Below are positions 295 through 18,201 of a stretch of DNA of 64,000 bases, one piece after another. Under the pieces are notes generated by a model. The model made no database searches. It saw only the letters and a list, made by a program, of their open reading frames with translations, and had not been told where the DNA came from. The translations under genes and the position numbers were made by a program. Where the stretch lies: positions 1 to 64,000 of the IMG/VR virus record IMGVR_UViG_3300027782_004053. The stretch is one strand, 5' to 3'. Source of the DNA: a virus. Every line of letters starts with the position of its first letter. Positions within the stretch are counted from its first letter, which is position 1.

Positions 295-603
295 TCAAAC
301 AGGGTGGTGGTCAATAGTTTTATCTGCATCGTTGACCTCGATGTCATGTACATATAAAAGCATCAATGCGTAGTGTAACACCTTTAGAAGGTCTTGTCTA
401 TTCCTTCCTGCTTTTTTTCCATACCTTTGGACATATTTCATGACGTTCCCTGCGGTGAATCCAACGCCATGTCCATTATCAATAATAAATTCCGTTGCTT
501 GAAATTTATTCATTGAATAGTGTTGACCATATGTTTTATCAATATAGTCTTTAAATTCCTTAATAAGTTCGCCTTCGTTGTACTTATAATTTATTTCCGC
601 CAT
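295..603 (-). CDS. DUF3310-type small phage protein
   Basis: This 102-residue protein carries the pattern of the DUF3310 (SaV-like) family, which is frequent in phages and has no settled function. Visible features are an F-x-x-GN-x-x-KYV-x-RY segment followed by a K-rich turn, a DLLK segment and a tyrosine-containing helix. The start overlaps the end of the preceding glycosyltransferase gene by 13 nt, so it is probably translationally coupled. It sits directly before the sliding clamp, which places it with replication genes rather than with the sugar genes upstream. The family assignment rests on motif recall only. Confidence 0.65.
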   Translation of the reverse strand: MAEINYKYNEGELIKEFKDYIDKTYGQHYSMNKFQATEFIIDNGHGVGFTAGNVMKYVQRYGKKAGRNRQDLLKVLHYALMLLYVHDIEVNDADKTIDHHPV

Positions 604-1960: not shown

Positions 1961-1971
1961 ATAATTTGCCT

Positions 1972-2670
1972 TTAATTTATAAGAATGCCGTTACTGAATT
2001 TAAATTCTTTGGGAGTGTTTTCTGGATTATACCCATTACATTCTTTAAGTGTTGGCGGATATAATGGTACATCATCCTCATTATATCCGTTGCCACAAAA
2101 ATCATAAGGGTTTGCTAATTGTTTTCGTGTTTCGCCGAACCAACCTTCATTCATAGAATGTATCATTGCATTATCTCTAACCATTGGCCATATTACTTCT
2201 TTTAAAAATATTTGATCGCCTAAATAGTATGCAAGGTTTTTCATATAGTGGTGCATTAGATTATATATCGGATTATTAAATTTACCTTTATATCCAAACG
2301 CACACCCTATAATAGGAAATTCATAATGAGCTTCGTGGTCTTGAAATTTATGGAATTTCTTATCAGAATTTAACCATTCATTAACTGCTCTTTGTTCTCT
2401 AATAGTTATTCTACTATCGGAATCTCGGACGATAACAACATTATTATCGTCTTCGAATAATGCATTAAATCTCCAGAACATACCATAACTGCCGTCTGTT
2501 ACTTCTATAATATTAGCATCAGTTAAATCTTTAAACTTTTGTTTGTCGTCAGTATAAATTCTAAATTCCCAATCAGGATAAAATTCTTTTGCTAATTCAT
2601 ATTGTCGATTGGCACCAACAATGTAGCGGGGCGAGTCGCCCCACACAGACATAGATATGATCTTTTTCAT
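1972..2670 (-). CDS. Putative glycosyltransferase with D-x-D-like motif
   Basis: I start this gene at ATG 2668-2670 (MKKIISMSVWGDSPRY), one base after the stop of the upstream gene. The longer frame beginning at 2739 would add 23 residues lying wholly inside that upstream gene. The 232-residue product has a strand-turn start typical of GT-A enzymes, a WEFRIYTDD segment, and VVIVRDSDSRIT, whose D-x-D could bind a metal-nucleotide sugar. It resembles small glycosyltransferase-like proteins found in T4-like phages of aquatic bacteria. The donor and acceptor are unknown, and the enzymatic call is an inference from motif and neighbourhood. Confidence 0.6.
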   Translation of the reverse strand: MKKIISMSVWGDSPRYIVGANRQYELAKEFYPDWEFRIYTDDKQKFKDLTDANIIEVTDGSYGMFWRFNALFEDDNNVVIVRDSDSRITIREQRAVNEWLNSDKKFHKFQDHEAHYEFPIIGCAFGYKGKFNNPIYNLMHHYMKNLAYYLGDQIFLKEVIWPMVRDNAMIHSMNEGWFGETRKQLANPYDFCGNGYNEDDVPLYPPTLKECNGYNPENTPKEFKFSNGILIN

Positions 2671-2671
2671 A

Positions 2672-3874
2672 TTAGTATCTAGATTTTCTTTCAATAATAA
2701 TTGCTGGACGTCCACTATGTCTAGCTTTCTTAAATGCAAGTTCCAAGTCTGCCCCGGTTACAGGATCATATACGGGGAAACTTACTGCAGTTCTAAGCAT
2801 ATTGGTAAAGTCTTGCGAGTGAGTAATTCCTGAATAGAAAGGACCGCCATCTGCAGTAACTGCTCGAATAATTACAGGTACCTTATATTCTCCATGAGAA
2901 ATTCTTTCAATCTTGTCAATATGATTAACAATTGCATCCATCGCAACTAACATAAAGTCATGACGCTCAAAATATAGAACAGGAATAAATCCTTCAAATC
3001 CCATACCAATTGCCAAACCAGCCATTAGATTTTCCGCAACAGGAGTTTCTAATTTCTGAGAATCAGATACACCTTTTAATGTTCCCATAGCGTTTCCGCC
3101 AGGAGCATTATTAACATTGTATCCAATAAAGATTGCACCATCGTTACCCAACTCTGTCATTACTTTAAATGCAGCATCCTTATATTTCATTTCTTCAACT
3201 GCAAATTCCGGATATTCAACTTCCTTTAAAGGAGGGAAATATTCATCATCTGTTTTCTTAACAGCTTTTGATAAATCAATCATGCCGGGTTTTCTAGCGT
3301 GCGGGTATGTAATTTCATATTTGTATTTAATAACAGAAGGAGAATTCCAAACATAGTCTGCAGTTTTGCCCCAACGCTGATCGTTAGTTGCTTCTACTGA
3401 CCGGTTGTTATTCTCAATAACAAACTTACAAGGCAAATCCCATCCATCCACATAACGAATTGCTTCATAGGTGTGTCCGTTATCTTCTGTTCCATCTCCA
3501 ATAAAGCACCACACTTTTTGCGTAGATCCTTTACGTTTCAACGCCCACGCAAGACCTGCTGCAATTGCAGGCGTTCCGCCAATAATTGCAGAACAGAAAA
3601 AGTTTCTAGCTTTGTCGTAAATAAACATACTACGCCCATTGAGAATTCTATCCTCAACTACTTCTGCGGGAATACCATGCAACAACGCATGATAATGGCT
3701 TCTGTGATTAGAAATAACATAATCGCCTTCTTTAATGTCTTTAAAGATATCAATTAGTTGTGTTTCATTACCACCAGATAGATGGAATAAAAATGGTAAT
3801 TTATTATCTAAATATAGCTCGCCAATCCTGTCCTCAAAGGCAATTAGCTCTTCCGGTGTCCAATCTCTTTTCAT
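2672..3874 (-). CDS. Thiamine-diphosphate E1-like enzyme, fused alpha/beta, shortened
   Basis: This 400-residue protein joins two halves of a 2-oxoacid dehydrogenase/decarboxylase E1. The first half (about residues 45-200) has an alpha-subunit pattern (NHRSHYHALLHG) and the ThDP motif, GDGT at 126-129 with NNN at 155-157. The second half (about 230-400) has a beta-subunit pyrimidine-binding pattern (TPVAENLMAGLAIGMGFEG, then SGITHSQDFTNM). Ordinary E1 alpha and beta subunits together approach 650-700 residues, and the usual transketolase C-terminal domain is absent here. E1-like pairs are known in two-carbon branching of sugars (AviB1/AviB2 of avilamycin). Acyl transfer to a sugar is therefore plausible but inferred. 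It overlaps the dehydrogenase gene upstream by 4 nt. Confidence 0.72.
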   Translation of the reverse strand: MKRDWTPEELIAFEDRIGELYLDNKLPFLFHLSGGNETQLIDIFKDIKEGDYVISNHRSHYHALLHGIPAEVVEDRILNGRSMFIYDKARNFFCSAIIGGTPAIAAGLAWALKRKGSTQKVWCFIGDGTEDNGHTYEAIRYVDGWDLPCKFVIENNNRSVEATNDQRWGKTADYVWNSPSVIKYKYEITYPHARKPGMIDLSKAVKKTDDEYFPPLKEVEYPEFAVEEMKYKDAAFKVMTELGNDGAIFIGYNVNNAPGGNAMGTLKGVSDSQKLETPVAENLMAGLAIGMGFEGFIPVLYFERHDFMLVAMDAIVNHIDKIERISHGEYKVPVIIRAVTADGGPFYSGITHSQDFTNMLRTAVSFPVYDPVTGADLELAFKKARHSGRPAIIIERKSRY

Positions 3875-4908
3875 TTAATGCTCTCCTTAAAATTAATAAC
3901 AATTCTTCCAGCTTCGCCATTTCTCATTTTAGCAAAACCATCATTTATATCTTCTAAACCAATTACATCGGTTACTAGTTTGTTTGCAAGTTCAATATTA
4001 TTATCGATGTGCATAATAATATCGGCCAAATCATTCTCAGGAACAAAATTGCCACCATCTGAACTAAATATTTTTATACCATCAAATATTTTTAACGCAT
4101 TGTCCAATGTTAATTTTTCGCCCGTCTTTGGTTGACCAACTAATACTAATGAGCCTTGTTTACCAAGAAGAGAAAATGCTTTGGAAATTACATCTGTATT
4201 TCCTGAAGTGTCAATACAATAATCCATTAGAGAAGATTCTGCAAAGAATGATGGGGCAGTTTCATATGAAAAATACTTTGCACCAAATTGTTCTACAAAT
4301 GGACGCTTAACCTCATAACGATCAACTAATGTAACATTTACATTATATAACACTTTTAGCCAGAATGCAATAGTTAATCCCAATCCACCAGCACCAGTAA
4401 TTAAAATATTTGAATTATCTTTTATTTTCAAATCATATTTTACAATACCATATGCTGTAGAAAACGCACATCCCATTAATGGATATAGATTTGTTAATTC
4501 TGTTTTATAGTCTACAGGAGTAACTCTATTTTCGGAAACAATTGTTTTCTCTGCAAAAGTTGTTACTGGGCCCGAACCAACGAGTCCCAATTTGGAAAAA
4601 TATTTGCCACCAAAACAATCGCAACCGATACCTTTTCTCCAATGTAAAACAACATAATCACCGGGTTTTACTTTAGTAACATTGTCGCCAATTTGTTTTA
4701 CTTGACCAAATCCTTCGTGGCCCATAAAATGGGGCATATACTTGTCCCATCCTTTAACCGCATCTATTTCATTTATTTGTGCGCCGCAAAGACCAGATGA
4801 GATCATTTCAACTAATACTTGTCCTTCAGTAGGATCTTGATGTTCAAATTGCTCAATACTTAAAGGTTCAAAATGCTTGCGCATTACCGCTGCCGAAAAA
4901 GTTTTCAT
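3871..4908 (-). CDS. Zinc-type medium-chain alcohol/polyol dehydrogenase
   Basis: This 345-residue MDR-superfamily dehydrogenase has a catalytic zinc site suggested by GLCGAQINEID near residue 38 and MGHEGFG near residue 64. The Rossmann dinucleotide motif is ITGAGGLGLTIAFWL near residue 170, followed by an acidic strand end (VDRYE) that favours NAD(H). The structural-zinc cysteine lobe is reduced; only two closely spaced cysteines appear in GIGCDCFGG. Members oxidise alcohols or sugar alcohols, or reduce the matching ketones. It lies between a sugar kinase and the E1-like enzyme and overlaps both by 4 nt, so it probably acts on the same sugar or on the product of the thiamine enzyme. Confidence 0.78.
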   Translation of the reverse strand: MKTFSAAVMRKHFEPLSIEQFEHQDPTEGQVLVEMISSGLCGAQINEIDAVKGWDKYMPHFMGHEGFGQVKQIGDNVTKVKPGDYVVLHWRKGIGCDCFGGKYFSKLGLVGSGPVTTFAEKTIVSENRVTPVDYKTELTNLYPLMGCAFSTAYGIVKYDLKIKDNSNILITGAGGLGLTIAFWLKVLYNVNVTLVDRYEVKRPFVEQFGAKYFSYETAPSFFAESSLMDYCIDTSGNTDVISKAFSLLGKQGSLVLVGQPKTGEKLTLDNALKIFDGIKIFSSDGGNFVPENDLADIIMHIDNNIELANKLVTDVIGLEDINDGFAKMRNGEAGRIVINFKESIK

Positions 4909-5846
4909 ATAGTTTTATTTCCTTTCATTAAATCTTCCAATTTTGCTCTATATTGTATTCCCGAGGATACAAATTTTGCAGCCAATTTATTTGCATAACC
5001 AATACTTTCCTCAAAAGAATGCCCTTCTAAGAAACAAAAACTTAGAACAGCTAGTACAGAATCTCCCGCACCACTTAATTCTTTTACCTTCACTTCTTCC
5101 GCCTTTGAGTGTATTAAACCGAGCACGCTATCATAAGCGTATATTCCATCATTACCTGCAGTAATAACTATTTTTTGAATTCGTAATTTATTGCAAATTA
5201 TTCTACACGCTTCTTCCATTGAAAAATCGGATGCGTATCGCAATCTAATTTTTTCAAATTCATATTTGTTTGGTTTTATAACTGTTGCTGAGGTAAAGAT
5301 ACTTAGATCATCTCGTTTTGTATCAACTAATACTGGGATGTTGTACATATTTGCAATCTCTATAATAGATTCTGCAACTTTCTTTGTGATAACACCTTTT
5401 TTATAATCAATCAATAGTATATCATCAAATAAAGATATGTTATTCTTAACATATTCTATAATTTCATTCTCAGTATTTTCTAATAGTGGATGTGTGGATT
5501 CGTTGTCATATCTAAGTAAGTGTGCATTTTTATACTTAGATATCAATCTAGTTTTTACAGTAGTTTTTCTGCCTGCTTCTTTTGTAATAAAGCAGTTACT
5601 GTTAAGATGAAAGTTATCGTTAAAAGTAGAGACCACTGAATCATAATCATTACCAACAACCGAAATAAAATTTACATTATGTCCCAATGAACATATATGT
5701 GCAGCAACATTGTATGCGCCGCCGAGCATATCTACTTCATCTTCTGTATCTAATACTAATGTCGGTGCTTCTGCAGAGATTCTTGTAGCATTACCATAAA
5801 TAAACCTATCAAAAATTAAATCACCTATAATCAAATGTCTTTTCAT
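4905..5846 (-). CDS. PfkB-family sugar kinase, HldE kinase-domain-like
   Basis: This 313-residue ribokinase-family enzyme has an N-terminus (IIGDLIFDRFIYGNATRISA, then EAPTLVL and a GGAYNVAAHICSLG segment) that matches the kinase half of HldE/RfaE, which phosphorylates heptose 7-phosphate at C1. The PfkB C-terminal signature with catalytic aspartate is ELSGAGDSVLAVL near residue 260. The nucleotidyltransferase half of bifunctional HldE is absent. Together with the HldD-like gene at 6641-7438 it suggests heptose handling, with the adenylylation step left to the host. It abuts the next gene with a 1-nt gap. The exact substrate is not proven. Confidence 0.75.
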   Translation of the reverse strand: MKRHLIIGDLIFDRFIYGNATRISAEAPTLVLDTEDEVDMLGGAYNVAAHICSLGHNVNFISVVGNDYDSVVSTFNDNFHLNSNCFITKEAGRKTTVKTRLISKYKNAHLLRYDNESTHPLLENTENEIIEYVKNNISLFDDILLIDYKKGVITKKVAESIIEIANMYNIPVLVDTKRDDLSIFTSATVIKPNKYEFEKIRLRYASDFSMEEACRIICNKLRIQKIVITAGNDGIYAYDSVLGLIHSKAEEVKVKELSGAGDSVLAVLSFCFLEGHSFEESIGYANKLAAKFVSSGIQYRAKLEDLMKGNKTI

Positions 5847-5847
5847 A

Positions 5848-6636
5848 TCAATACATTACCTCATATCCTATAACTCCCCAGCGATTATTGTTCCATCTAC
5901 AATTAACCTGGGTCTCAACGCATGCTTTTATGTTGTGAAAGAACAATCTAGCAGAGGTTCTATCAACAACACTATCAACCAAACATCCAACGCTACTCGG
6001 AACTACATGAATTTCTTTAGCATTATAAATTAAATCCATGTAATCAAATATATTATCTGTAGCGCCTTCTTTAATTTCAATAATATCAAGATTATTTATA
6101 TTACCAGAAACAGCTACGTTTATAGGATATCCATCGGGTTTGTTGCTACTATATCTATGGACTAACATATAGTCCCTTCCTTTATATAAGGAATCAAATA
6201 GCTTTTTAGAATTTTTAGTATTTTGTGGAATCTGGCATTTAGTATATCTTGCAGAGAATGGAACTTCTACAATTTCATACATTTGCCTATCAGAACTTAT
6301 TGCAAGATTTGCGTAATCAAGTTGTCCATTAGGAAGTTTTCTTAATAATCTAGTATATTGTATTTCCGGATCTGCCGCACTCAACATACTGCAATTATTT
6401 TTATTTGCAAAATCTTCTAGCAAATGTTTATTGCGTGTAATATCAATATCAGGGAATTCTAATAATTCAATATTACTAAATCCCTCATATAATGTTTGCA
6501 TAGATTCCCTAAAGAATTTTCTATAAGGAACATAAACAACATCGCAGACTTCTGCAAATGCGTGAACCATTCCGTTGCAAATTATATGATCACCGAGACC
6601 AGTATGAGTATGTAGTAATAATCTATCACCTGCCAT
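5848..6636 (-). CDS. Possible heptosyltransferase-like (GT9-like) protein
   Basis: I do not recognise this 262-residue protein with certainty. It begins with LLLHTHTGLGDHIICNGMVH, which resembles the first nucleotide-binding loop of family 9 heptosyltransferases. It ends in a second Rossmann-like half containing a MDLIYNAKEIHVVPSSVGCLVD segment, reminiscent of the GT9 donor-site region where a serine-rich turn precedes a helix. The length is shorter than the usual 320-350 residues. It sits between a HldE-like kinase and a HldD-like epimerase, so a role in transferring or sensing heptose fits the context. No membrane segment is visible. Confidence 0.45.
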   Translation of the reverse strand: MAGDRLLLHTHTGLGDHIICNGMVHAFAEVCDVVYVPYRKFFRESMQTLYEGFSNIELLEFPDIDITRNKHLLEDFANKNNCSMLSAADPEIQYTRLLRKLPNGQLDYANLAISSDRQMYEIVEVPFSARYTKCQIPQNTKNSKKLFDSLYKGRDYMLVHRYSSNKPDGYPINVAVSGNINNLDIIEIKEGATDNIFDYMDLIYNAKEIHVVPSSVGCLVDSVVDRTSARLFFHNIKACVETQVNCRWNNNRWGVIGYEVMY

Positions 6637-6640
6637 TATT

Positions 6641-7438
6641 TTATCCTTGTTTCAAGTAATCTACGTAATTGGAAACGCCTTCCTTTATTGTAGTCATACT
6701 TGATAAATTATATCCAATTTTTTCCAATGTTGTCATATCGGAAGATGTATTCTTTTGATATTGATTAACTATATCTTCAGGAAACTTTATATATTCCTTT
6801 TCACCAAATCCAATTTTTTCTAAAAGACATTGTAGTACATATTCAAAATTATTTTGTGTACCTGATCCTAAATCATATGTTCCGGGAATATAGTTATTTA
6901 AAAAGTATTCTATTACTTTAATAAGATCCTGTACATATATAAAATCTCTATAGATTGAATCCGATCCTTCAAATATTTTTGCTTTACCTGTGTCATTAAT
7001 TTGATTATACCAATGATATATTGTACTAGCCATTCTACCTTTATGTTCCTCATGCGGGCCATATACATTAAAAAATCTTAGAACAACTGCTCTGTTATTA
7101 ATATGTTCTTCACTATCAAGTTTACTCTTAGCATAAAGATTTAATGGGCCGTTTCCATTTCCATAAATTGCTGCAGAACTTGCAAATATAAAAGGAATAT
7201 TATTTTCGTTACAATAATCAAACCATTTATTAGTGCTGTCAACATTTAATCTTGTCAATCTACCCCAATCTTTTTCCAATGTATTAGAAATTGCTCCCAA
7301 ATGAACAACTCCTGTTATGTCTTTTGAATATATTGGTTCATCCTCAATATCAAGACCAACGACATTATAATTTCTTTTTACAAAATAGTCTATTGCATTT
7401 TGTCCAATAAAACCATTTGCCCCGGTTATTACTACCAT
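6641..7438 (-). CDS. NAD-dependent epimerase, HldD-like
   Basis: This 265-residue extended short-chain dehydrogenase has a cofactor loop GANGFIGQN at 6-14, an active-site segment ASSAAIYG, a catalytic Y-x-x-x-K in LNLYAKSKLDSEE, and FFNVYGPHEEHKGRMAS. The last two resemble ADP-L-glycero-D-manno-heptose 6-epimerase (HldD), where the sequence between the tyrosine-lysine pair and the NVYGP block is diagnostic. HldD interconverts ADP-heptose epimers for the LPS core. This copy is about 45 residues shorter than the bacterial enzyme. The adjacent HldE-like kinase strengthens the heptose reading; UDP- or GDP-sugar epimerase activity is the main alternative. Confidence 0.7.
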   Translation of the reverse strand: MVVITGANGFIGQNAIDYFVKRNYNVVGLDIEDEPIYSKDITGVVHLGAISNTLEKDWGRLTRLNVDSTNKWFDYCNENNIPFIFASSAAIYGNGNGPLNLYAKSKLDSEEHINNRAVVLRFFNVYGPHEEHKGRMASTIYHWYNQINDTGKAKIFEGSDSIYRDFIYVQDLIKVIEYFLNNYIPGTYDLGSGTQNNFEYVLQCLLEKIGFGEKEYIKFPEDIVNQYQKNTSSDMTTLEKIGYNLSSMTTIKEGVSNYVDYLKQG

Positions 7439-8382
7439 ACAAAATTCTCTTTATAATAATCTACCATAATTTCTAATTCATTATCAAAATTTGCATTTGG
7501 GCGCCACCCAAGAGATTTTAATTTAGAATCATCTATTGCATATCTAACATCTTGGCCTTGTCGTTTTTCGGACAAATCCATAAAATTGCTATATGTTTCT
7601 TCGGTGCATAAGTGAAATCTATCTATAATTTTTTTGGCAATAACTATATTTTGTTCCTCATAGTTTCCAGATATGTTATAGATTTCATTTTTTGTTTCAG
7701 ATTTAATTATGGTTATAACTGCAGAAGCGGTATCAGATACATGGAGCCATGTTCTTCGCGGCATCCCGGCATCGTGCATAATAATTTTCCTACCCAAAGT
7801 CAAATGCTTAATTGCTTTTGGTATAAATTTTTCTACATATTGCCCTGTGCCATAATTATTAGTTGGTCTAAGAATGACATAAGGAACCTCATATGTTCTT
7901 GCCCATGCAAGTACTAACATATCTGCAGCTGCTTTTGTTGCAGAATATGGATTACTTGGTTTTAATAAATCTGTTTCAGAATGAGCGCCATCAACAATAT
8001 CACCATATACTTCATCCGTACTAAAATGCAATAGTGTAGGGCGTCTTGTTTTTGGGGTTGCTTTTATTAGTTCAAGTAATTTATGGACTCCATTAATATT
8101 GCTTCTAAGGAAAACATCTGAGCTAACAATACTATTGTCAACGTGTGTTTCGGCAGCCATATTAATGATGTAGTCGCAATCATAAATTTTTTCTAGATCA
8201 TTAATATCCGAATACAAAAATTTAAATTTTGGATATTCTAATAGTAAAGGAAGGAAGTTTTTATTGCTGGCATATGTTTTTTTATCAATACCAAAAACAT
8301 AATAACCTTCATCTAAACATTTTTTAGTAACATGGTATCCCATGAATCCTAAACAACCTGTCACATAAACAATTTTTGTCAT
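7432..8382 (-). CDS. NDP-hexose 4,6-dehydratase, RmlB-like
   Basis: This 316-residue SDR enzyme has the RmlB family pattern: GCLGFMGYH cofactor loop at 9-17, MAAETHVDNS, the catalytic HFSTDEVYGD block with its Thr-Asp-Glu triad, YSATKAAADML (Y-x-x-x-K), a RPTNNYG segment, and a late QDVRYAIDDSKL segment. Enzymes of this type convert dTDP-, CDP- or UDP-glucose to the 4-keto-6-deoxy sugar, the entry step for deoxysugars. The nucleotide cannot be read from the sequence. A downstream-acting C3-dehydrase lies at 12055-13377. No nucleotidyltransferase is visible, so the substrate would come from the host. Confidence 0.8.
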   Translation of the reverse strand: MTKIVYVTGCLGFMGYHVTKKCLDEGYYVFGIDKKTYASNKNFLPLLLEYPKFKFLYSDINDLEKIYDCDYIINMAAETHVDNSIVSSDVFLRSNINGVHKLLELIKATPKTRRPTLLHFSTDEVYGDIVDGAHSETDLLKPSNPYSATKAAADMLVLAWARTYEVPYVILRPTNNYGTGQYVEKFIPKAIKHLTLGRKIIMHDAGMPRRTWLHVSDTASAVITIIKSETKNEIYNISGNYEEQNIVIAKKIIDRFHLCTEETYSNFMDLSEKRQGQDVRYAIDDSKLKSLGWRPNANFDNELEIMVDYYKENFVW

Positions 8383-9158
8383 ACATATACTTTCAACCCA
8401 TGTGCTAAGCCATATAAACGAAGAGCATGGTGCTTTTTTAAATTATCTAAAGCAGTAGAATTCCCAGTATAATCTGTATTCCCTGTTGATTCTACAATAA
8501 AATTTTTCTCTAAATTATTTATATCACAAAAATAATCTAAAAATTCACTAAGCTTTATTTTTTCAGGATATACGCAATCTATTGTCTGATACAATGAGGT
8601 TACTGTTTGTAGATTTGACAATACAAATTTAATTATATTGTAGAAATCTTGTATTGAGATGTAATCAAATTTTCGGTCATCTATAAGTTTAAAAGGTTCT
8701 GTAGATGCAAGGAATCTTTTTAATAACCGAGTTTCATATTCTGTATTTCCAAAACATCCAAACAATCGCAAATTAATGTATTTTGCATCTTTTCTAATAA
8801 TATCATAAATTGTTCTCTTAGAGAAAGCATACGCATTGTTTGTATCTGTACCTTCTATTCCCGAACCAATATTAATATAATTTTTAAATAGATTAGAGTT
8901 AGAATGAAAATTATAAAACAAAGATAAATTTCTTGCTACGTCGTATGCGTCTTTGCTTTGTAGATTTTCTTTTCCGCCAAATGTTAGACAATTTATAACA
9001 ACATCTGCTTGAACCGCAGTTAATAAATTCTTTACAGTTTCATTGTCAAATAAATCTACCTGATCTTTATAGATAGGAAGTACTTGATGTGCCGATGTTA
9101 ACTCTTTAGTTAGGTAAGATCCAATAAATCCGCCTGCGCCAATAATTACAATTCTCAT
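8379..9158 (-). CDS. Short NAD-dependent sugar reductase/epimerase (SDR)
   Basis: This 259-residue SDR protein starts with the Rossmann loop IIGAGGFIGSYLTKEL and has a catalytic Y-x-x-x-K in NAYAFSKRTIYDII. The overall plan resembles 4-ketoreductases such as RmlD, Fcl or the yersiniose reductase, but no subgroup signature is clear. Its flanks are informative: a 4,6-dehydratase follows and a split thiamine enzyme precedes, all with 4-nt overlaps. It is therefore a good candidate for the final reduction of a 4-keto or branched keto-sugar. Reduction of the Gmd product to GDP-fucose or GDP-rhamnose is the other obvious option. Confidence 0.6.
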   Translation of the reverse strand: MRIVIIGAGGFIGSYLTKELTSAHQVLPIYKDQVDLFDNETVKNLLTAVQADVVINCLTFGGKENLQSKDAYDVARNLSLFYNFHSNSNLFKNYINIGSGIEGTDTNNAYAFSKRTIYDIIRKDAKYINLRLFGCFGNTEYETRLLKRFLASTEPFKLIDDRKFDYISIQDFYNIIKFVLSNLQTVTSLYQTIDCVYPEKIKLSEFLDYFCDINNLEKNFIVESTGNTDYTGNSTALDNLKKHHALRLYGLAHGLKVYV

Positions 9159-9895
9159 ATGTTTACAATCATTTCTTTTTTAAATTCTTCATCTGATAAA
9201 AATGGTAGCATGTCATGAAGGCCTGCCTGTTTACCATTTTTTAATGCTTGGGCTGGTAAAATTTCTTGGTCTTCTAAACACTTACAATCTATAATAGCGG
9301 GCCCGTCAACTAATAAAAAATCTTTAAAGGAATTCAATTGAGTTTCCAATCTAACATCTTGATAATCTAGACCAAATGTAGTTGCTATATTCTTAAAAGA
9401 TGGAAACCATAATCCAGTTTCAGAACTTGTTCCAAATACTCGTCCATTAAAATATTTGGATTGGGTATTTTTAATACTTAAATATCCATTATTATTCAAT
9501 ACAATAAATTTTATATTAAGGTTATGTTGTTTTACAACGGCAAGTTCTTGAATATTGCTCATAAAACTACCATCGCCTGTTATGGCAATAACTTGTTGAT
9601 TGCTTGACATAGCAACACCTATTGCTGCAGGAACCACCCAGCCCATATCTGCTTGTGCTGGGCTAAAAATAAAGCGTTGTCCTTCTTTTGCATTAAGGGC
9701 AGTTGGTCCAGCATAACTAATACTGCCAGCATCGCCCATAATAATATCAGATGCTATACTATATTTGTTTACTGCATCTAAAACTGCGTAAATATTTAAT
9801 GCGTAATCATTATTATTCGCGGCATATTCTGGCTGCATCACCGGCCATATGTTTTTCCAATGATTGCATTTATCAATCCATTCTTGCCGCGTCAT
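9155..9895 (-). CDS. ThDP enzyme, pyrophosphate-binding half (acetolactate-synthase-like)
   Basis: This 246-residue protein corresponds to the C-terminal third of acetolactate-synthase-type enzymes. It contains the ThDP signature GDGS at 107-110 with NNN at 134-136 and the spacing expected for the Mg-diphosphate site. Upstream lies QADMGWVVPAAIGVAM, the typical stretch before the motif. It follows the gene for the other two domains with an ATGA overlap at 9892-9895. The pair must combine to give a complete active site, because the catalytic glutamate is on the partner. Known family members of ordinary build are single chains of about 550-600 residues. Confidence 0.8.
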   Translation of the reverse strand: MTRQEWIDKCNHWKNIWPVMQPEYAANNNDYALNIYAVLDAVNKYSIASDIIMGDAGSISYAGPTALNAKEGQRFIFSPAQADMGWVVPAAIGVAMSSNQQVIAITGDGSFMSNIQELAVVKQHNLNIKFIVLNNNGYLSIKNTQSKYFNGRVFGTSSETGLWFPSFKNIATTFGLDYQDVRLETQLNSFKDFLLVDGPAIIDCKCLEDQEILPAQALKNGKQAGLHDMLPFLSDEEFKKEMIVNI

Positions 9896-10902
9896 ATCAT
9901 ACCTCTAAAAAATTCTTCTAGGTTAACATTATACTTGGAATCAATATGCACAATATCTTTTTTCAACTCATTTATATCTAAATCTATTGCAATCTTATAA
10001 CTAGCGGGACTAAATTGTTTTGGATCATATCCAATAACACTGCTATTTACGCTGCTTCCAAGTATCAATAATAAGTCAGCATTCTGCATTGCAAAATTAC
10101 CTGCTCGAGAACCTTTAATTCCTACGGTACCAATACTTAACGGGTGGCTATCTGCAGTATAGTCCCTTGCACCGTAAGTACTAACGTATGGGATCTGATA
10201 ATTTTCAATAAAATTAACAAATTGATCCACAGTATTACTTTGTCTAATACCGTATCCCGCAAGAATAACTGGGCGCCGAGACTCTGAAATTTTTTGTTTA
10301 ATCTCAGAAAAATTAGACATTAGGTTGTTTACAACCGACGGTATATACGTTGAATATTTTTCCGGCATTTCTGCCGTTTGGATATTGCTAGGAATGTCTA
10401 TCCAAACGGGACCGGGTCTACCACTTGTCGCAGTATAAACTGCTTCTTGAATTTTATAAGCAACATCTTCAACACTAGTAATGAATGTTGCGGTTTTTGT
10501 CATTGATTTAAATGTATCAATAACATTATGTTCTTGTATTCCATACTTTCGAATATTAATATTCTTTTGTTCATTTATCCAAGAACTACAAGTATCCAAA
10601 CGTACATTACCACTTATGAATAATACAGGAACAGAATCTTGCCAAGCATTTAAAACACTAGTTGCACAGTTTGTTCCTGCACACCCAGTAGTAGGATTTA
10701 CTACAGATAGTTTTCCTGTAAATTTACTTTCGCCTATTGCAGAATGTCCTGCACCTTGTTCGTGATGATAACAGATATAATTTATTTTTCCATGTTTAAT
10801 GAAACCATCATTAAGTCCGCTGGCGCCGCCGCCCATCAATCCATGTACTCTAGATACACCTATATTGTATAAGTATTCTGCTATCCAATCACAAACTCGC
10901 AT
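9892..10902 (-). CDS. ThDP enzyme, pyrimidine-binding and central half (acetolactate-synthase-like)
   Basis: This chain carries the pyrimidine-binding domain, with catalytic glutamate in YHHEQGAGHSA, and the central domain of an acetolactate-synthase-like enzyme. It stops just where the diphosphate-binding domain would begin. I prefer the start at 10902 (MRVCDWIAEYLYNIGV, 336 residues), which matches where family proteins begin and has a weak GGG upstream; the frame opens 6 codons earlier at 10920. Relatives such as YerE attach a pyruvate-derived two-carbon unit to a keto-sugar. The next gene supplies the missing domain. The gene overlaps the aminotransferase gene by 14 nt. Confidence 0.78.
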   Translation of the reverse strand: MRVCDWIAEYLYNIGVSRVHGLMGGGASGLNDGFIKHGKINYICYHHEQGAGHSAIGESKFTGKLSVVNPTTGCAGTNCATSVLNAWQDSVPVLFISGNVRLDTCSSWINEQKNINIRKYGIQEHNVIDTFKSMTKTATFITSVEDVAYKIQEAVYTATSGRPGPVWIDIPSNIQTAEMPEKYSTYIPSVVNNLMSNFSEIKQKISESRRPVILAGYGIRQSNTVDQFVNFIENYQIPYVSTYGARDYTADSHPLSIGTVGIKGSRAGNFAMQNADLLLILGSSVNSSVIGYDPKQFSPASYKIAIDLDINELKKDIVHIDSKYNVNLEEFFRGMI

Positions 10903-12058
10903 GATTTGTTGCCCAATCATTAATACGTTTTAATGCTTCAATTATATCTTTTTTACTGGTAGCATAACAAAGGCGTAGATATCCTTTGCCATATTCCCCA
11001 AAACAATCTCCAGGTAATGTAACAACCCCGGCATCAAGTAATGCGTTGCATACCTCTTCAGAAGTTAGACCCGTCTTTGTAATATTTGGAAATACATAGA
11101 ATGCGCCTCCTGGAGACAAACACTCAAATCCCGGAATCTTATTCAATCCATCAACCAGTAAATCTCTTCTAGACTTATATTCTTCCATCATATTATAAAC
11201 AGAATCTTGCGGGCCGTCAATAGCTTCTTTCCCGGCTGCTTGAATAAATGGGCTAACGCAACTACTCGTTGTTTGTAACAATGCAGCCATTCTTTCAATC
11301 ACAGTACTAGGGCCTATCATAGTTCCTAGTCTCCAACCAGTCATTGCAAATGCTTTACTAAAACCATTGCTTATAATAACGTGTTCTTTACATTCATCAT
11401 ATATTCCGGGACTACTAAATGTGCTATAATTCATCCTACTATAAATTTCGTCACTATACAGATATATGTCTTTTTCTTTTGCCAATTCATATATTGCTTT
11501 AATTTCTTCAGGAGTCATTACACTTCCCGTAGGATTGTGTGGACTGTTTATAATGATCAATCTAGTTTTATCGGTAATTGCATTTGCAACATCCTCGGGG
11601 TTCATTCTAAATTTGTTTTCTTCTTTTAACGGCACTCTAACAGGAATTGCGCCGCACATTTTAATTGTGCTGTAATAAGTTGCAAATCCAGGATCGGGAA
11701 CAATTACTTCATATCCAGGATCAACTAAACAGTATATTGCATAAAACATTCCAATATTGGCGCCAGGAGTAATTAACACTTGATCTAGATCGGGCGCAAA
11801 TCCTCTACTTCGTTTAGTAGCATCTATAATAGTTTGTCGAAAGTCTGGCAATCCAAAACTACTGCAATAATGCGTGCCGCCATTCTTCAAAGAATTTATA
11901 GCAGCATTAATTACATTTTCTGGAGTATCAAAATCTGGATCTCCTATTTCCATATGGATCATAGATCTACCAAGTGATTCTAATTTTTTTGCCCTGTCCA
12001 AATATTTGAACATGGGTTGCCCATCAATATTGGAAGCGACTTTACTTAAATTTTTCAT
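10889..12058 (-). CDS. Class I PLP aminotransferase (aspartate/alanine type)
   Basis: This 389-residue fold-type I aminotransferase has every landmark: MEIGDPDFDTP at 36-46, LITPGANIG for cofactor phosphate contact, NSPHNPTG at 171-178, YSDEIYSRM and the Schiff-base lysine K235 in SNGFSKAFAMTGWRLG. It belongs with amino-acid aminotransferases rather than with the sugar aminotransferase (DegT) family. Located between a C3-dehydrase and a 2-oxoacid-using thiamine enzyme, it may release pyruvate or another 2-oxoacid from an amino acid to feed the thiamine enzymes. That role is inference. It overlaps its neighbours at both ends. Confidence 0.88.
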   Translation of the reverse strand: MKNLSKVASNIDGQPMFKYLDRAKKLESLGRSMIHMEIGDPDFDTPENVINAAINSLKNGGTHYCSSFGLPDFRQTIIDATKRSRGFAPDLDQVLITPGANIGMFYAIYCLVDPGYEVIVPDPGFATYYSTIKMCGAIPVRVPLKEENKFRMNPEDVANAITDKTRLIIINSPHNPTGSVMTPEEIKAIYELAKEKDIYLYSDEIYSRMNYSTFSSPGIYDECKEHVIISNGFSKAFAMTGWRLGTMIGPSTVIERMAALLQTTSSCVSPFIQAAGKEAIDGPQDSVYNMMEEYKSRRDLLVDGLNKIPGFECLSPGGAFYVFPNITKTGLTSEEVCNALLDAGVVTLPGDCFGEYGKGYLRLCYATSKKDIIEALKRINDWATNHASL

Positions 12059-13377
12059 ACAAATAAACTCATAAAACCATCAACTACTTTACCTATATAT
12101 GCAATTTGTTCGGGAGTAATTACTGGACTTGTGCCATGGAAATAAGTATTGGTCATTGTCATTGTAGCAATCGGAAAATTATCTCTTGCATCTGCAGGAT
12201 TCATTAGATGACTATATGCTGGTTGTAGCATAATGTTACCTGCAAAATATGGGCGCGTCTGAATCAAATGTTCTTCAAGATAATCAACAATATCGCTACG
12301 TGTAAAAGGAACACCTTTGCGAATTGTTAACGGGAATGCAAACCAACTAGGATTACTCTTTGCCTGTGCTCTTGGTAAGTGGAAATATTCTTCATATTTA
12401 CTATAGATATCAAACAATAAGTTGTAATTGCGTTTGCGTAACTCGTGTATTGTTTCCAACTTATCTAATTGAACCAATCCCATCGCACCTTGCAATTCAA
12501 TTGGTTTTAAATTGTAACCTATTTCATCATACACATACTTGTGATCAAAAATTTCTCCCGGCATCTCAGGAATCCATTCTTTAAACCGTGTGCCACAAGA
12601 ACCGCATTTTAATTTATTTGCTTCAGGTCCAACACAATAACATCCGCGACCCCATTCTCTAAATGATCTAGCAATGACTTCTGTTTCATATGTCTTGCAG
12701 GCAACAAACCCACCTTCGCCCATTGTCATGTGGTGGGCAGGATAGAATGAACAAGATGCCATCTCACCATAAGATCCTAATGGATTTCCGTCATATGTAG
12801 ATCCTAAAGCATCGCAGCAATCTTCCAAAAGAATCATATCATATCGTTTAACTAATTCCATCACCCAATCCATATTAGGTGGATTACCTAATACATGAGC
12901 AAATGTAATTACTCTGATATTATGTTTTTTAATTAGTTCTTCTGCTCTTGTTAGATCAAGATTTAATGTATCTAATTCAATGTCTAAAAATACAGGCTCA
13001 AATCCAAGTTGTAAGGTGGGATTTAATGTTGTAGGAAATCCTGCAATAGGCATCAATACCTTTGTTCCCTTTGGCAAATTATATCCACGCTTAGATGTAA
13101 GAGTAGACATCATTAACAAGTTAGAACTAGATCCAGAATTTGTTAAAATTCCATGATTCTTTCCAAATTGTTTAGGAAACTCTTTTTCAAATTTTACGGA
13201 TTGGTCGCCCATAACAAGCCAACCATTTAATAACGTACTTACTGCTGCAAGTATTTCATGCTCGTCAAAATATGGACCTGCGTATTTAACGAAGTCTTTA
13301 CCAGGAATCCAAATTTCCTCATTGCGTTTATTTCTAACAAACTCCGCAATGCCAATTAAAATATCATCTTTGTTCAT
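12055..13377 (-). CDS. PMP/[2Fe-2S] sugar 3-dehydrase, RfbH/DdhC-like
   Basis: This 440-residue DegT-family protein has SFYPAHHMTMGEGG at residues 210-223. Histidine (H216) replaces the usual PLP lysine, the hallmark of the CDP-4-keto-6-deoxyglucose 3-dehydrase (E1, RfbH/DdhC) and of ColD. It also has C188, C246, C248 and then C258/C261. C188 and C246 are separated by exactly 57 residues and C246 and C248 by one, matching the C-x57-C-x-C start of the E1 [2Fe-2S] motif; the last spacing (9 or 12 rather than 7) differs. It would remove the C3 hydroxyl of a 4-keto-6-deoxyhexose. The partner reductase E3 is not in the window. Confidence 0.82.
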   Translation of the reverse strand: MNKDDILIGIAEFVRNKRNEEIWIPGKDFVKYAGPYFDEHEILAAVSTLLNGWLVMGDQSVKFEKEFPKQFGKNHGILTNSGSSSNLLMMSTLTSKRGYNLPKGTKVLMPIAGFPTTLNPTLQLGFEPVFLDIELDTLNLDLTRAEELIKKHNIRVITFAHVLGNPPNMDWVMELVKRYDMILLEDCCDALGSTYDGNPLGSYGEMASCSFYPAHHMTMGEGGFVACKTYETEVIARSFREWGRGCYCVGPEANKLKCGSCGTRFKEWIPEMPGEIFDHKYVYDEIGYNLKPIELQGAMGLVQLDKLETIHELRKRNYNLLFDIYSKYEEYFHLPRAQAKSNPSWFAFPLTIRKGVPFTRSDIVDYLEEHLIQTRPYFAGNIMLQPAYSHLMNPADARDNFPIATMTMTNTYFHGTSPVITPEQIAYIGKVVDGFMSLFV

Positions 13378-13380
13378 AAT

Positions 13381-14283
13381 TTACCAATATGCGTAATTAG
13401 TTTCTAAGTTGGGATGTACCACTCTTTGTGCTTTATCCTCATCCAATGGGTATATCCAATATTCATTAAACATAGGAAGCCATTCTTTATACGAAGGAGA
13501 TTGTAACCAACGGGAACCAACAATACCAAAAAATAATTGGATCGTTCCGCCTGTCTGTATTCCTACTTTTCCTTGTTGCTTAGCATGCTGAGCATAAAAA
13601 GGAGATTGTGTTGTCACTCCCGTTAACAAAACATCATAATCATAACTATCAATTAATTTCTTTGTATGCTCAACTATACTATCGAATGTATTGCATCCTG
13701 GAATCTGTCTATCATCTGCAAGCGGATGGTATGGCGTTTTAATACAATCCACTAATTCAAAAGGTACAATTTTTTCTTTGTCTTTGCCCCAAATCCTATC
13801 AAGGTGATCCCATTGATATTTTATAGATTCGGCGTGTGTAGATATTACAAGAACTTTTTTACCTTTTAAATGTTGTGTCCAAGGTACTGGCAGTTTATTA
13901 TACTCAGAATAATATCCCAACAATCCTCCAGGATCTAATGCCGCAGTATCCTTATGAAAGAATGTTGGTTTATCCTCAAATTGCTTTATAAAATTTGATC
14001 TTTTAATATCTCCAGATACATCAACAAATCCTAAAATATCACACTCTTTCATTACGTCTAAAGTCTCGGGCCACAACTTTTTAAACACGTAATCCATATT
14101 ATCGGGTACGCCGCCTTCAACTAATGTGTATTCATTGTAGTGTTGTCTATCGGGAATAATTCCTCGAGAGATACAATCAAGAACATACCCTGCAGTATTG
14201 TCTATTCTTAATAGTGAAAACGGGACATTACTATCCAATTTTTCTATTAACAGGTCATTTAGTTTGTAATAGTCAATTTGCAT
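13381..14283 (-). CDS. Unknown, possibly GT-D-fold glycosyltransferase
   Basis: I do not firmly recognise this 300-residue protein. It begins with a VPFSLLRID segment that resembles the start of GT-D (DUF1792-type) glycosyltransferases, although the usual DGE acidic motif that follows is not conserved. Near residue 240 it has GKVGIQTGGTIQLFFGIVG, a block I associate with uncharacterised proteins of polysaccharide clusters, followed by a Trp/Pro-rich C-terminus. It has no signal peptide or membrane segment. It is separated by only 3 nt from the C3-dehydrase gene and overlaps the next glycosyltransferase by 11 nt, so a role in glycan assembly is likely. Confidence 0.4.
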   Translation of the reverse strand: MQIDYYKLNDLLIEKLDSNVPFSLLRIDNTAGYVLDCISRGIIPDRQHYNEYTLVEGGVPDNMDYVFKKLWPETLDVMKECDILGFVDVSGDIKRSNFIKQFEDKPTFFHKDTAALDPGGLLGYYSEYNKLPVPWTQHLKGKKVLVISTHAESIKYQWDHLDRIWGKDKEKIVPFELVDCIKTPYHPLADDRQIPGCNTFDSIVEHTKKLIDSYDYDVLLTGVTTQSPFYAQHAKQQGKVGIQTGGTIQLFFGIVGSRWLQSPSYKEWLPMFNEYWIYPLDEDKAQRVVHPNLETNYAYW

Positions 14284-14986
14284 AGTATAGTGCTAATTTT
14301 TCTTTATCTGTTTTAATATATCGAAACACATCTTGTACATCAGGTGTAAGCGATTGATATAGTTGCATCATCTCTGTTTCCGCCTGATGCATATTATAAT
14401 TAGTTCCCCGCGGGTGGGCAATAGTAAATGCGTAATCTCGAATAACTGGTCGTTTTTTAATATAACTAAGTGCGGTAAAAATTATATCAAAACTCCAACC
14501 CATTTTATACGGAGCAAAATTTATATTTCTATTTTTTGCGTCATCAAGTATATCTTTATGAATAAACCAACAAGTGCAATCTGTATTTGCAACCATTTTT
14601 AAATTAGGCTCGTCCAGGTCAAAACTTGTTAAATCTGTTCTAAAAGGATTGTAGAATGTGTAATCTACATTGGGAGCATAGATTCCCCAATTATAGGTGT
14701 CAAAGCAATCTCTTGCACCTTGATAAATTTCTGCCCAATTATCATATGATGCGTCTGCTTGAATGTGAAACATTACATCGCCGGTAAACAATTCTAATGC
14801 TTTTAAGAATTGTGCAGTGAAATAACTTTCTTCTCCAATGTTGTGCCAATTGGGATCGTCCTCACGGTGATTGTCGTCACTATTAATGACAACAGGCACA
14901 ACCCCAATGGCACTCAGTTGCTTTTGCTTTTCTTTTGTTTTTTCATATTGACCGCGCCAATTGAAAATAAATGTCTGTATATTCAT
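14273..14986 (-). CDS. Small GT-A-like glycosyltransferase
   Basis: This 237-residue protein has the look of a phage GT-A glycosyltransferase. It has an N-terminal strand followed by QLSAIGVVPVVINSDD, a central VMFHIQADASYDNW with an acidic D-x-S in the position of the metal motif, and a CTCWFIHKDIL segment followed by MGWSFDI, resembling the second half of GT2-type catalytic domains. A C-terminal histidine is within AHPRGTNYN. Donor and acceptor are unknown. It overlaps the fucosyltransferase-like gene by 4 nt and is probably made with it. Confidence 0.55.
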   Translation of the reverse strand: MNIQTFIFNWRGQYEKTKEKQKQLSAIGVVPVVINSDDNHREDDPNWHNIGEESYFTAQFLKALELFTGDVMFHIQADASYDNWAEIYQGARDCFDTYNWGIYAPNVDYTFYNPFRTDLTSFDLDEPNLKMVANTDCTCWFIHKDILDDAKNRNINFAPYKMGWSFDIIFTALSYIKKRPVIRDYAFTIAHPRGTNYNMHQAETEMMQLYQSLTPDVQDVFRYIKTDKEKLALYYAN

Positions 14987-15852
14987 CGTTGTAAAATTTT
15001 ATTATACACTACGGCATCAAACCAATTCAAGAAATTATCAAGCATGATGTATGATGGAGGGATGCCATTTTTAAATTTTGGCGCATTAAGCATTATGTTA
15101 TATAATTCATCATTGCCGTCCAAATACATAATAAATTTAATTGCTTCTTCAACACTACCAAAATCATTTACATCAATAAATGCATTTGGATTAAAATCCG
15201 AACTAATTGTTTCACTGCCCCAATAAATTGGAATTGTTCCTGCATAAAATGCGTGGAGTATTTTTTCAGTAACATAACCAGGATGCGAATATGGCTCAAA
15301 GCAAATATTAAATTTCCTTGTTGATAAGAATTCAATTTTTGCAGCCTCGCCTTCCAAATTAACATCTATATTTTTATATAGTTTGCCCGCACTATCAACG
15401 TGTTTTTCTTTGTGCAACATTTTAAAGAAATTATTACGTTCCTGACAATTCGGGTTACTTACAACAAAAGAACAGAATCCGGTTTTCTCTTTAATTTCTG
15501 GATTAAAGATATAGTTAAAATCGTATTTAGTATTGTGTATGTGTTCCAATGCCCACATATAGACAACATACAATGGCAATCTATAATGCCAAGATTCAAA
15601 GTTATGATCAAAACTTATTGCGTAGTTGCAATCATAATCTTCTGGTCTTTGATTTTCGCCTGTATAGAAAATCTTAACGCAATCTTTAGAATATTTTAAA
15701 TTGTTTTCTCCAAAATTTCTATCACCAAATAACAAAAAATCAGGATTCTCATTATTAACTTCTACATCATATCGTGTAGATAACAAGTCCATAAAGAATG
15801 TTGCTAGATGCGGATGGGTATCTGTAAACCCTATACTTAATTTTTTAGTCAT
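14983..15852 (-). CDS. Family 10 (fucosyltransferase-type) glycosyltransferase
   Basis: This 289-residue protein carries the GT10 signature near residues 185-215: STRKFNICFEPYS, then GYVTEKILHAFYAGTIPIYWG. The E-x-x-x-x-x-x-YVTEK block is the donor-binding core of alpha-1,3-fucosyltransferases that use GDP-fucose. No membrane anchor is present, as in bacterial family members. Its immediate neighbour is GDP-mannose 4,6-dehydratase, the first enzyme of GDP-fucose synthesis, so a GDP-6-deoxyhexose donor is consistent. Whether it decorates host surface glycans or virion proteins is not visible. Confidence 0.8.
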   Translation of the reverse strand: MTKKLSIGFTDTHPHLATFFMDLLSTRYDVEVNNENPDFLLFGDRNFGENNLKYSKDCVKIFYTGENQRPEDYDCNYAISFDHNFESWHYRLPLYVVYMWALEHIHNTKYDFNYIFNPEIKEKTGFCSFVVSNPNCQERNNFFKMLHKEKHVDSAGKLYKNIDVNLEGEAAKIEFLSTRKFNICFEPYSHPGYVTEKILHAFYAGTIPIYWGSETISSDFNPNAFIDVNDFGSVEEAIKFIMYLDGNDELYNIMLNAPKFKNGIPPSYIMLDNFLNWFDAVVYNKILQR

Positions 15853-15861
15853 ATAACTTTC

Positions 15862-16872
15862 TTAATTATCAAAATTCATGCACATATCTTCAACCAAATC
15901 ATCGAATGATTGTGTGGGTTTCCATCCTAATTGGATTCTTGCCTTAGACGCATCTCCCAATAATGTCTCAACTTCCGCTGGTCGGAAATACTTTTTATCT
16001 ACTCGGACTATTACCTTTTTATCTGCTTTATTAATACCAACTTCATTAACACCGTCGCCTTGCCAACGAATTTGCAAACCAAAATATGGAGCACAATGTT
16101 CAACAAATTCTCTTACGGAAAACTGTTCTCCAGTTGCAATAACATAATCCTCGGGGGTATCTTGTTGTAGCATCATCCACATTGCGTTAACATAATCTTT
16201 AGCATGCCCCCAATCTCGCATGGCGTTTAGATTACCAAGATACAAACACTCTTGTTTGCCTTCACTAATTGCCTTTAAAGCATTTACAATTTTCTTAGTT
16301 ACAAAGTTGTGGCCACGGCGAGGAGATTCGTGATTAAATAGTATGCCTGAACAAGCAAACATATTATACGACTCTCTATAATTTTTTACAATCCAATAGG
16401 CGTACATTTTTGCAACACCGTAAGGAGATCTAGGATAAAATGGGGTTGTTTCTTTTTGTGGGATTTCCTGAACTAATCCAAATAGTTCAGAAGTAGATGC
16501 CTGATAAATTTTTGTTGTTTTATCCAGATTGAGCAATCTTACCGATTCTAATATTTTTAGCGTGCCCATTGCATCAACCATACCAGTATATTCGGGAGTC
16601 TCAAAAGAAACCTTAACATGGCTTTGTGCTGCTAAATTATAAATTTCATCTGGAGAATGTTTTTTTAGAACATTCATCAATGATAACGAATCAGTCACAT
16701 CTCCATAGTGCAATTCTAGATTTGGGTGGTTAAATATATGGTCAATTCTAGAAGTATTAATTGAGGAACTCCGTCTAATAATACCATGAACTTCATATCC
16801 TTTTTCTAATAGAAGTTCTGCTAGATAGGAACCATCCTGTCCGGTGATTCCTGTAATCAATGCTTTTTTCAT
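15862..16872 (-). CDS. gmd: GDP-mannose 4,6-dehydratase
   Basis: This 336-residue protein is a textbook GDP-mannose 4,6-dehydratase. It has [19 protein letters not shown] at the N-terminus, [36 protein letters not shown], the active-site [11 protein letters not shown] block, [15 protein letters not shown] with Y-x-x-x-K, and FNHESPRRG. It converts GDP-mannose to GDP-4-keto-6-deoxymannose, the precursor of GDP-fucose and GDP-rhamnose. The length equals that of bacterial enzymes, about 340-370 residues. It is the first gene after the late promoter at 16907-16914, 35 nt upstream, so it heads the sugar operon. Confidence 0.95.
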
Positions 16873-16968: not shown

Positions 16969-18132
16969 TTAGAATGGAATCTCATCATCTTCTTGCGGAG
17001 CAGATACAATTACTTCTTCTTCCTTGGGTGTTTCCATTTTCTTGTAAAGATCCAAAAAGGCATTCTTTGTATCTGCATCAAAGCGATTAATACAAAGTTC
17101 AATTGCCTTTTGCCGATCTTTAAACATTGAGAATGCTTTTACAATATGAACAAGACGTCGAGTAGAAATTAATTCATCAATTGCATCTTCAAGATATGTC
17201 TTGCGAATAACCTCGGCCCAAGTAACCAATTTGTCTGCAAATTCTGAATCTTCACAATTCAATTCTTTCATATTGTTGATAATGATCTTATGCTCAATTT
17301 TAGCATTTGGATACTCTTGTTCAACAGTAATAGGAAAACGCTCAAGGAATGCCTCATCAAGAATTTGTGCTGCAATATATTTGCCGCTATCCGAACCTTG
17401 ACCTTTAGTATTTGCTGTAGCAACAACAGTAAACCCAGGGGCAGGATAAATTACATCACCATTCTTTTTATTAAAATATGGCTTGCCTTCAAGAATACCT
17501 TGAATACACATTAGTTTATTACTGCCACGATCAATCTCGTCAATCAACAAAACTGAACCACGGCGCATTGCTAGAATAACAGGACCTTCACGGAATGTTA
17601 CGTTACCATCAATTAATGTAGATCCACCAACAAGATCATCTTCATCCGTTTCAATAGAAATATTAACACGAACACATTCTCGCTTTAGTTTAGAACAAAC
17701 TTGTTCTACCATAGTAGTTTTACCATTACCAGTTAGACCAGTAATAAACACAGGATAAAACACTTTAGATTTAATGATGGATTCTAAATCTCGGAAGAAT
17801 CCAAAAGGAACATAGTTGTCATCTTTAATAGGTACTAGATTTTCAACTTCTGTTACCATGCGTTTTTGTCGCAACGGAATAACTTGTGCTTGTAGTGCAG
17901 GGACTTCTTCTTTCATAACTGTTTCTTTAAAGATTTCTTTTTCTACATTTTCCGAGACATCAAGATTTAATACACCGCGGCTTGCTCGATATTTTGCACC
18001 ATTTATTAGCCAAAAAGGTGTCTTAATTCCTTTTTGTTCTAGATAAGCAATTACATCTTTTCGTGCTGCGGTCTTACCAAATTTAATTACAAGGTCTGCT
18101 ACAAGCTGTTTTTTATCAATATTGGTTTTCAT
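16969..18132 (-). CDS. cobS: CobS-like AAA+ ATPase (MoxR type)
   Basis: This 387-residue AAA+ ATPase has Walker A GLTGNGKT at 132-139, Walker B VLLIDEID at 194-201, a sensor-type VVATANTKGQGSDSGKY segment and an arginine-rich C-terminal lid region (STRRLVH). The N-terminal 100 residues form a separate adaptor-like region. Homologues in T4-like cyanophages are annotated as CobS, the cobaltochelatase ATPase, but MoxR-type ATPases more generally remodel partners together with a VWA protein. Such a VWA protein is encoded next door. No other cobalamin gene is in the window, so a metal-chelatase role is not supported by context. It has its own sigma-70-like promoter. Confidence 0.85.
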   Translation of the reverse strand: MKTNIDKKQLVADLVIKFGKTAARKDVIAYLEQKGIKTPFWLINGAKYRASRGVLNLDVSENVEKEIFKETVMKEEVPALQAQVIPLRQKRMVTEVENLVPIKDDNYVPFGFFRDLESIIKSKVFYPVFITGLTGNGKTTMVEQVCSKLKRECVRVNISIETDEDDLVGGSTLIDGNVTFREGPVILAMRRGSVLLIDEIDRGSNKLMCIQGILEGKPYFNKKNGDVIYPAPGFTVVATANTKGQGSDSGKYIAAQILDEAFLERFPITVEQEYPNAKIEHKIIINNMKELNCEDSEFADKLVTWAEVIRKTYLEDAIDELISTRRLVHIVKAFSMFKDRQKAIELCINRFDADTKNAFLDLYKKMETPKEEEVIVSAPQEDDEIPF

Positions 18133-18172
18133 AATATAGTCCTAGGGATAAGGATGGGGATTTCACAAAATA

Positions 18173-18201
18173 ATTATAACATCTTTTGATGTTCGTGTCA
18201 A
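18173..18201 (-). promoter_or_regulatory. Sigma-70-type promoter for cobS-like gene
   Basis: On the minus strand TTGACA (18196-18201) and TATAAT (18173-18178) are both perfect and 17 nt apart. The -35 box overlaps the stop codon of the cobT-like gene. The spacer contains an inverted repeat AACATC-AAAA-GATGTT, and AAAAGATGTTATAAT is shared exactly with the cobT-like promoter. Confidence 0.8.

Follow-up and report, generated by a model that had tools for sequence, protein, structure and literature searches.

A run of six phage genes probably encodes a pathway to a C-branched 3,6-dideoxysugar, the product and branch donor of which we infer. We consider this the best reading of the gene set because its thiamine enzyme is a YerE-like carboligase, its C3-dehydrase keeps the RfbH residues, and the carboligase genes are linked to RfbH and RmlB genes. 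The analysis directly established which families the proteins belong to, their catalytic motifs, the conserved linkage of the genes, the division of the carboligase into two genes, and the position of that division in the tree. The preliminary description of this DNA had proposed yersiniose-type synthesis; a C-branched 3,6-dideoxysugar in a phage holds up, whereas yersiniose itself is disfavored because the dehydratase appears to be a dTDP-type enzyme, none of the 12 phage records searched has a CDP-glucose dehydratase above cut-off, and a donor gene lies beside the carboligase. What is new is that a phage carries the genes, that its carboligase is split, that the route runs through an RmlB-type enzyme, and that the donor genes can be exchanged. 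A literature search, with most subscription journals outside its coverage, found no phage branched-sugar pathway.

A six-gene run and its conservation among phages

The window (the whole stretch analyzed, 64,000 bases) is part of a virus record of 91,554 bases and contains T4-like phage genes for the major head protein, portal, tail sheath, terminase, and head protease. A DNA similarity search against a phage collection gave no match. Between positions 7432 and 13377, six genes with overlapping or abutting open reading frames lie on the minus strand in the order RfbH-like C3-dehydrase, class I aminotransferase, N-terminal and C-terminal halves of a thiamine enzyme, SDR, and RmlB-like dehydratase. 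The four activities previously named for this run (4,6-dehydratase, C3-dehydrase, thiamine enzyme, and SDR reductase) are all encoded in it, and the earlier gene list was incomplete, as it missed the aminotransferase (10889 to 12058; PF00155, 240 bits; PLP lysine motif SNGFSK).

The wider sugar cluster spans approximately 591 to 16872. Adjoining RfbH on the same minus strand is a gene of unknown family (13381 to 14283) that, judging from gene order, has the same neighbor in some related phages too; it is followed by a conserved cluster gene that recurs in related phages (14273 to 14986), and neither has a Pfam or PHROGs match. Next, again on the minus strand, are a glycosyltransferase of the GT10 (fucosyltransferase) family (14983 to 15852; PF18025 and PF00852) and a GDP-mannose 4,6-dehydratase, or Gmd (15862 to 16872; TIGR01472, 551 bits against a cut-off of 415), which belongs to a separate GDP-sugar branch. 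At the other end of the run, positions 3871 to 7438 hold genes for a zinc alcohol dehydrogenase, a heptose-kinase-like PfkB protein, a protein of unknown family, and a heptose-epimerase-like SDR, perhaps a second sugar pathway. A second thiamine enzyme (2672 to 3874), weakly like pyruvate dehydrogenase E1, combines an E1-alpha-like part and a transketolase pyrimidine domain in one fused protein. At positions 16969 to 20348, an ATPase that PHROGs labels “porphyrin biosynthesis” (phrog_249) adjoins a 716-aa open reading frame that lacks a Pfam match.

The gene set is shared by dozens of related phages known from metagenomes. Of 80 viral loci, 77 have RfbH beside the thiamine genes and 63 have RmlB there; once near-copies are removed, the counts are 45 and 35 of 46, respectively. 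The co-occurrence of the thiamine genes with RfbH exceeds chance. SDR relatives are present in 41 of the 80. Gene order varies among these loci, and RmlB or the SDR is found elsewhere in some, as might be expected if the genes were a nonfunctional passenger or served two unrelated sugars. That explanation seems very improbable to us, given that catalytic residues are intact across dozens of divergent copies and that the ATGA overlap between the carboligase halves is conserved (68 of the 70 split viral loci examined).

A two-gene carboligase of the YerE-like group

The thiamine enzyme, previously described as a single gene, is encoded by two genes on the minus strand (9892 to 10920 and 9155 to 9895) joined by this four-base stop/start overlap. 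The assignment as a thiamine enzyme itself stands: the PYR and middle domains (PF02776 and PF00205) lie in the N-terminal half, which likely starts at an internal ATG at approximately 10902, and the ThDP-binding PP domain (PF02775) lies in the C-terminal half, so that all three domains are present across the pair. The catalytic Glu is conserved in an HHEQ motif in the first half, and the GDG...NN motif is intact in the second. The carboligase is a single chain in 10 viral loci and in 78 of 80 bacterial relatives, and a single origin of the split fits a careful tree (support 86/70). Carboligase relatives from Phycisphaerae (L110, L130, L138, and L141) are 862 to 1034 aa long, with several hundred extra fused residues. 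In some phages the carboligase has an FkbM-type methyltransferase gene as its neighbor (L025:11752-12423 and L037:9338-9994), and in some bacteria such a gene is close by, a hint that the product may be O-methylated.

In profile searches, the best match of the N-terminal half was JanthE (248 bits), followed by PpYerE (230 bits), and that of the C-terminal half was again JanthE (197 bits; runner-up, 112). JanthE (PDB 8rph, from Janthinobacterium) is described in PMC12188165 as a YerE-like, ketone-accepting enzyme; enzymes of this kind add decarboxylated 2-oxo acids to ketones, according to PMC12247030. In line with the profile scores, Foldseek searches with structures predicted for each half separately (mean pLDDT 86 for the N-terminal and 77 for the C-terminal half) placed JanthE at the top for the first half, with acetolactate synthases close behind, and returned JanthE for all of the top seven matches to the second. 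JanthE is thus the closest solved relative of both halves, at an identity of only about 26 to 28%. It shares with the phage pair an NNxGYx(S/M)IKxTQ stretch and a C-terminal extension, the NNxGYxSI motif being common to JanthE and the phage enzymes and missing from PpYerE; it differs in being one chain and in having a CDG motif where the split phage pair has GDG (GEG in some relatives).

Could the pair instead be an ordinary acetolactate synthase, supplying host amino acids or cofactors and merely placed among sugar genes? The NCBIfam models that match it best are named for acetolactate synthases, but their scores are far below cut-off, and acetolactate synthesis is related chemistry. A protein search of the phage collection with the thiamine gene gave only matches below 36% identity, several of them to annotated bacterial acetolactate synthases. 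In the tree, some branches are long, and the named YerE-like enzymes are JanthE and PpYerE, both assembled from aligned search-output segments. The phage enzyme shares a clade with JanthE and bacterial proteins (100/99), and PpYerE joins at the base (98/91); Escherichia coli IlvB, IlvI, Gcl, PoxB, and Oxc fall outside this supported group. Forcing the split phage enzymes together with IlvB/IlvI was rejected (AU test, p 4.6e-5), JanthE outscored any acetolactate synthase in the profile searches, and the linkage to RfbH is nearly constant. On the tree and the profile scores, we reject an ordinary acetolactate synthase and assign only a slight chance to a host-supply role of this kind. The phylogeny proposed as a check in the preliminary description therefore groups the pair with YerE-like carboligases, and the pair is predicted from its sequence to couple decarboxylated 2-oxo acids to ketones.

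The C3-dehydrase, the 4,6-dehydratase, and the nucleotide carrier

The C3-dehydrase gene (12055 to 13377, minus strand) encodes an RfbH/E1-type, PMP-dependent enzyme that scores 425.1 bits against NF011936, above the cut-off of 423. Its best solved structure is 3bcx, a CDP-6-deoxy-L-threo-D-glycero-4-hexulose-3-dehydrase (E 3e-90; next E1 match, 5e-89). As in E1, His replaces the PLP-binding Lys (SFYPAHHMTMGEGG), and four Cys are arranged as CxC-x10-CxxC, with a spacing unlike that of canonical RfbH and common to most phage relatives; these Cys are candidate [2Fe-2S] ligands. The retained His and Cys bear out the C3-dehydrase identity as judged from sequence. Canonical RfbH adjoins the same carboligase clade in one phage subgroup (L062-L064 and L066-L068), so two RfbH lineages appear to serve one carboligase lineage. 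A search of 12 phage records, which are possibly incomplete, found no Fer2 domain of an E3-type reductase partner; electrons for RfbH would therefore come from the host, which may provide the reductase.

The presence of a true Gmd upstream raises the question of whether RfbH might act on its product, yielding a colitose-like 3,6-dideoxysugar on a GDP carrier, to which the carboligase would add the branch. ColD, a related C3-dehydrase, acts on a GDP sugar. However, the window RfbH matches E1 far better than ColD (E 3e-90 versus approximately 1e-47) and has E1-type cysteines, close Gmd relatives occur in a minority of viral loci compared with 63 of 80 for RmlB, and in L031 Gmd pairs with a GDP-L-fucose synthase-like gene. 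We regard the GDP route as quite unlikely.

The dehydratase (7432 to 8382, minus strand) is RmlB-like. It scores 295 bits against TIGR01181, below the cut-off of 365, and 71 bits against the CDP-glucose 4,6-dehydratase model, for which the cut-off is 278. Its top ten PDB matches are all annotated as (d)TDP-glucose 4,6-dehydratases (2hun, E 5e-66), and it carries the TDE and YxxxK motifs as STDEVY and PYSATK, STDEVY being present in 63 of 63 viral RmlB relatives. Among the 12 phage records searched, no CDP-glucose dehydratase scored over its cut-off. Because the dehydratase is RmlB-like rather than of the CDP-glucose type, the likely carrier is dTDP, and the CDP-glucose route originally proposed is not favored. 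No dedicated RmlA or RfbF was identified, the virus record of the window showed no clear nucleotidyltransferase, and a non-exhaustive PF00483 scan of the genomes gave almost nothing; we do not rely on this negative result, since a direct scan of L031 revealed a divergent nucleotidyltransferase that the PF00483 scan had missed. The nucleotidyltransferase may come from the host. The remaining enzyme of the run (8379 to 9158, minus strand) has an SDR/epimerase fold (PF01370, 50 bits; YAFSK motif), is weakly related to named reductases, and is a putative reductase.

The bacterial relatives examined adjoin genes for glucose-1-phosphate cytidylyltransferase, CDP-glucose 4,6-dehydratase, and RfbH, which together make CDP-4-keto-3,6-dideoxyglucose. 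In the two bacterial clusters scanned (L088 and L093), the first two of these were well above cut-off, and RfbH of L088 reached 716 bits. Bacterial rfbF-rfbG-rfbH-aminotransferase-carboligase clusters (such as L088, L093, and L100) resemble the window in having RfbH nearby and an aminotransferase 58 to 60% identical to that of the window, usually directly upstream of the carboligase; they differ in that the carboligase is fused, CDP-sugar genes are present, and RmlB is absent. Synechococcus phage S-H68 has an annotated sugar cluster with a dTDP-glucose 4,6-dehydratase and an RfbH-like gene; it is absent among the carboligase matches listed, and no carboligase is annotated in the stretch shown.

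Candidate donor genes and the proposed pathway

In the window, the aminotransferase gene has RfbH on one side and the thiamine genes on the other; among solved structures, its product comes closest to general aspartate and aromatic aminotransferases. An aminotransferase is present in 33 of the 80 viral loci; 47 show none, some of these loci ending at contig edges. It is also found in 15 bacterial loci, where it mostly lies directly upstream of the carboligase and usually no more than 20 bases away, and the bacterial aminotransferases beside fused carboligases are 52 to 60% identical to that of the window. Other loci carry different genes beside the carboligase. One pair, acetaldehyde dehydrogenase and 4-hydroxy-2-oxovalerate aldolase, occurs in two viral (L056 and L057) and three bacterial loci (L089, L091, and L143); in the phage contig L056 (8097-10000), the dehydrogenase, which is acetylating, and the aldolase directly follow the split carboligase. 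Ketopantoate hydroxymethyltransferase (KPHMT) is found in viral loci L076-L078 and bacterial loci L098 and L136. No two of the aminotransferase, aldolase pair, and KPHMT were found in the same locus, an exclusivity that rests on modest numbers, as many loci lack all three and some are cut at contig ends. In L046-L048, two E1-like open reading frames lie between RfbH and the carboligase, the slot held by the aminotransferase in the window.

The aldolase pair makes 4-hydroxy-2-oxovalerate, and both it and KPHMT yield 4-hydroxy-2-oxo acids. In PMC12247030, ErwE is reported to take 4-hydroxy-2-oxo acids, its preferred class of donor, but not pyruvate, a donor usage in erwiniose-type synthesis that parallels the aldolase-pair loci in function. 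The presence of a donor gene beside the carboligase points to a branch that is longer and hydroxylated, like that of erwiniose. By analogy, we hypothesize that the window aminotransferase makes a donor resembling a 4-hydroxy-2-oxo acid, perhaps from homoserine.

These donor genes also bear on strict yersiniose synthesis, in which CDP-4-keto-3,6-dideoxyglucose and pyruvate would give a two-carbon branch and the aminotransferase would serve something else. An RfbH above its curated cut-off, a carboligase in the YerE-like clade, bacterial relatives in CDP-sugar clusters, and an SDR that follows, as expected for branch reduction, all agree with it. Nevertheless, the dehydratase resembles RmlB and has a TDE motif, none of the 12 phage records has a CDP-glucose dehydratase over cut-off, and pyruvate could be used without a donor gene of its own, whereas such a gene is linked here and differs by exchange between lineages; the pyruvate-derived two-carbon branch proposed earlier is thus argued against, and we consider strict yersiniose synthesis unlikely. 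The Yersinia pathway has the same order of activities as the phage set (4,6-dehydratase, PMP-dependent C3-dehydrase, thiamine carboligase, and reductase). The phage-borne set differs in its RmlB-like rather than CDP-type dehydratase, its split carboligase, its added donor gene, and the lack of a detected reductase partner for RfbH.

For the C-branched 3,6-dideoxysugar that we favor, we infer all substrates, the nucleotide, the branch length, the order of steps, and the destination of the product. The RmlB-like enzyme would convert host-made dTDP-glucose to dTDP-4-keto-6-deoxyglucose, from which the RfbH-like enzyme, using PMP and an iron-sulfur cluster reduced by a host protein, would remove the C3 oxygen to leave a 4-keto-3,6-dideoxy sugar. 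From an amino acid, the aminotransferase would make a 2-oxo acid, which may be of the 4-hydroxy type; the two-gene YerE-like carboligase would decarboxylate this acid on thiamine diphosphate, transferring the acyl unit to the C4 ketone of the sugar to give a tertiary alcohol. The SDR would then reduce the branch ketone. The resulting nucleotide-linked, C-4-branched 3,6-dideoxyhexose would be attached to a glycan on the surface of either the infected cell or the virion. More tentatively, it is possible that this represents a widespread phage pathway to a novel dTDP-linked 3,6-dideoxysugar whose C-4 branch is longer and hydroxylated, built by a two-subunit carboligase and an exchangeable donor module.

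If the proposed pathway is correct, an acetolactate synthase or ilvB label on a phage gene may hide a sugar enzyme. The auxiliary metabolic genes reported in one survey of viral contigs include ilvB along with rfbG and gmd (PMC8226683), and this ilvB possibly belongs to the same family. The carboligase would then be a natural two-subunit, ketone-accepting enzyme of interest for biocatalysis, and the identity of the donor could be read from neighboring genes. Phages of dozens of lineages would encode everything needed to branch a rare class of sugars, with a probable role in remodeling the host surface or the virion.
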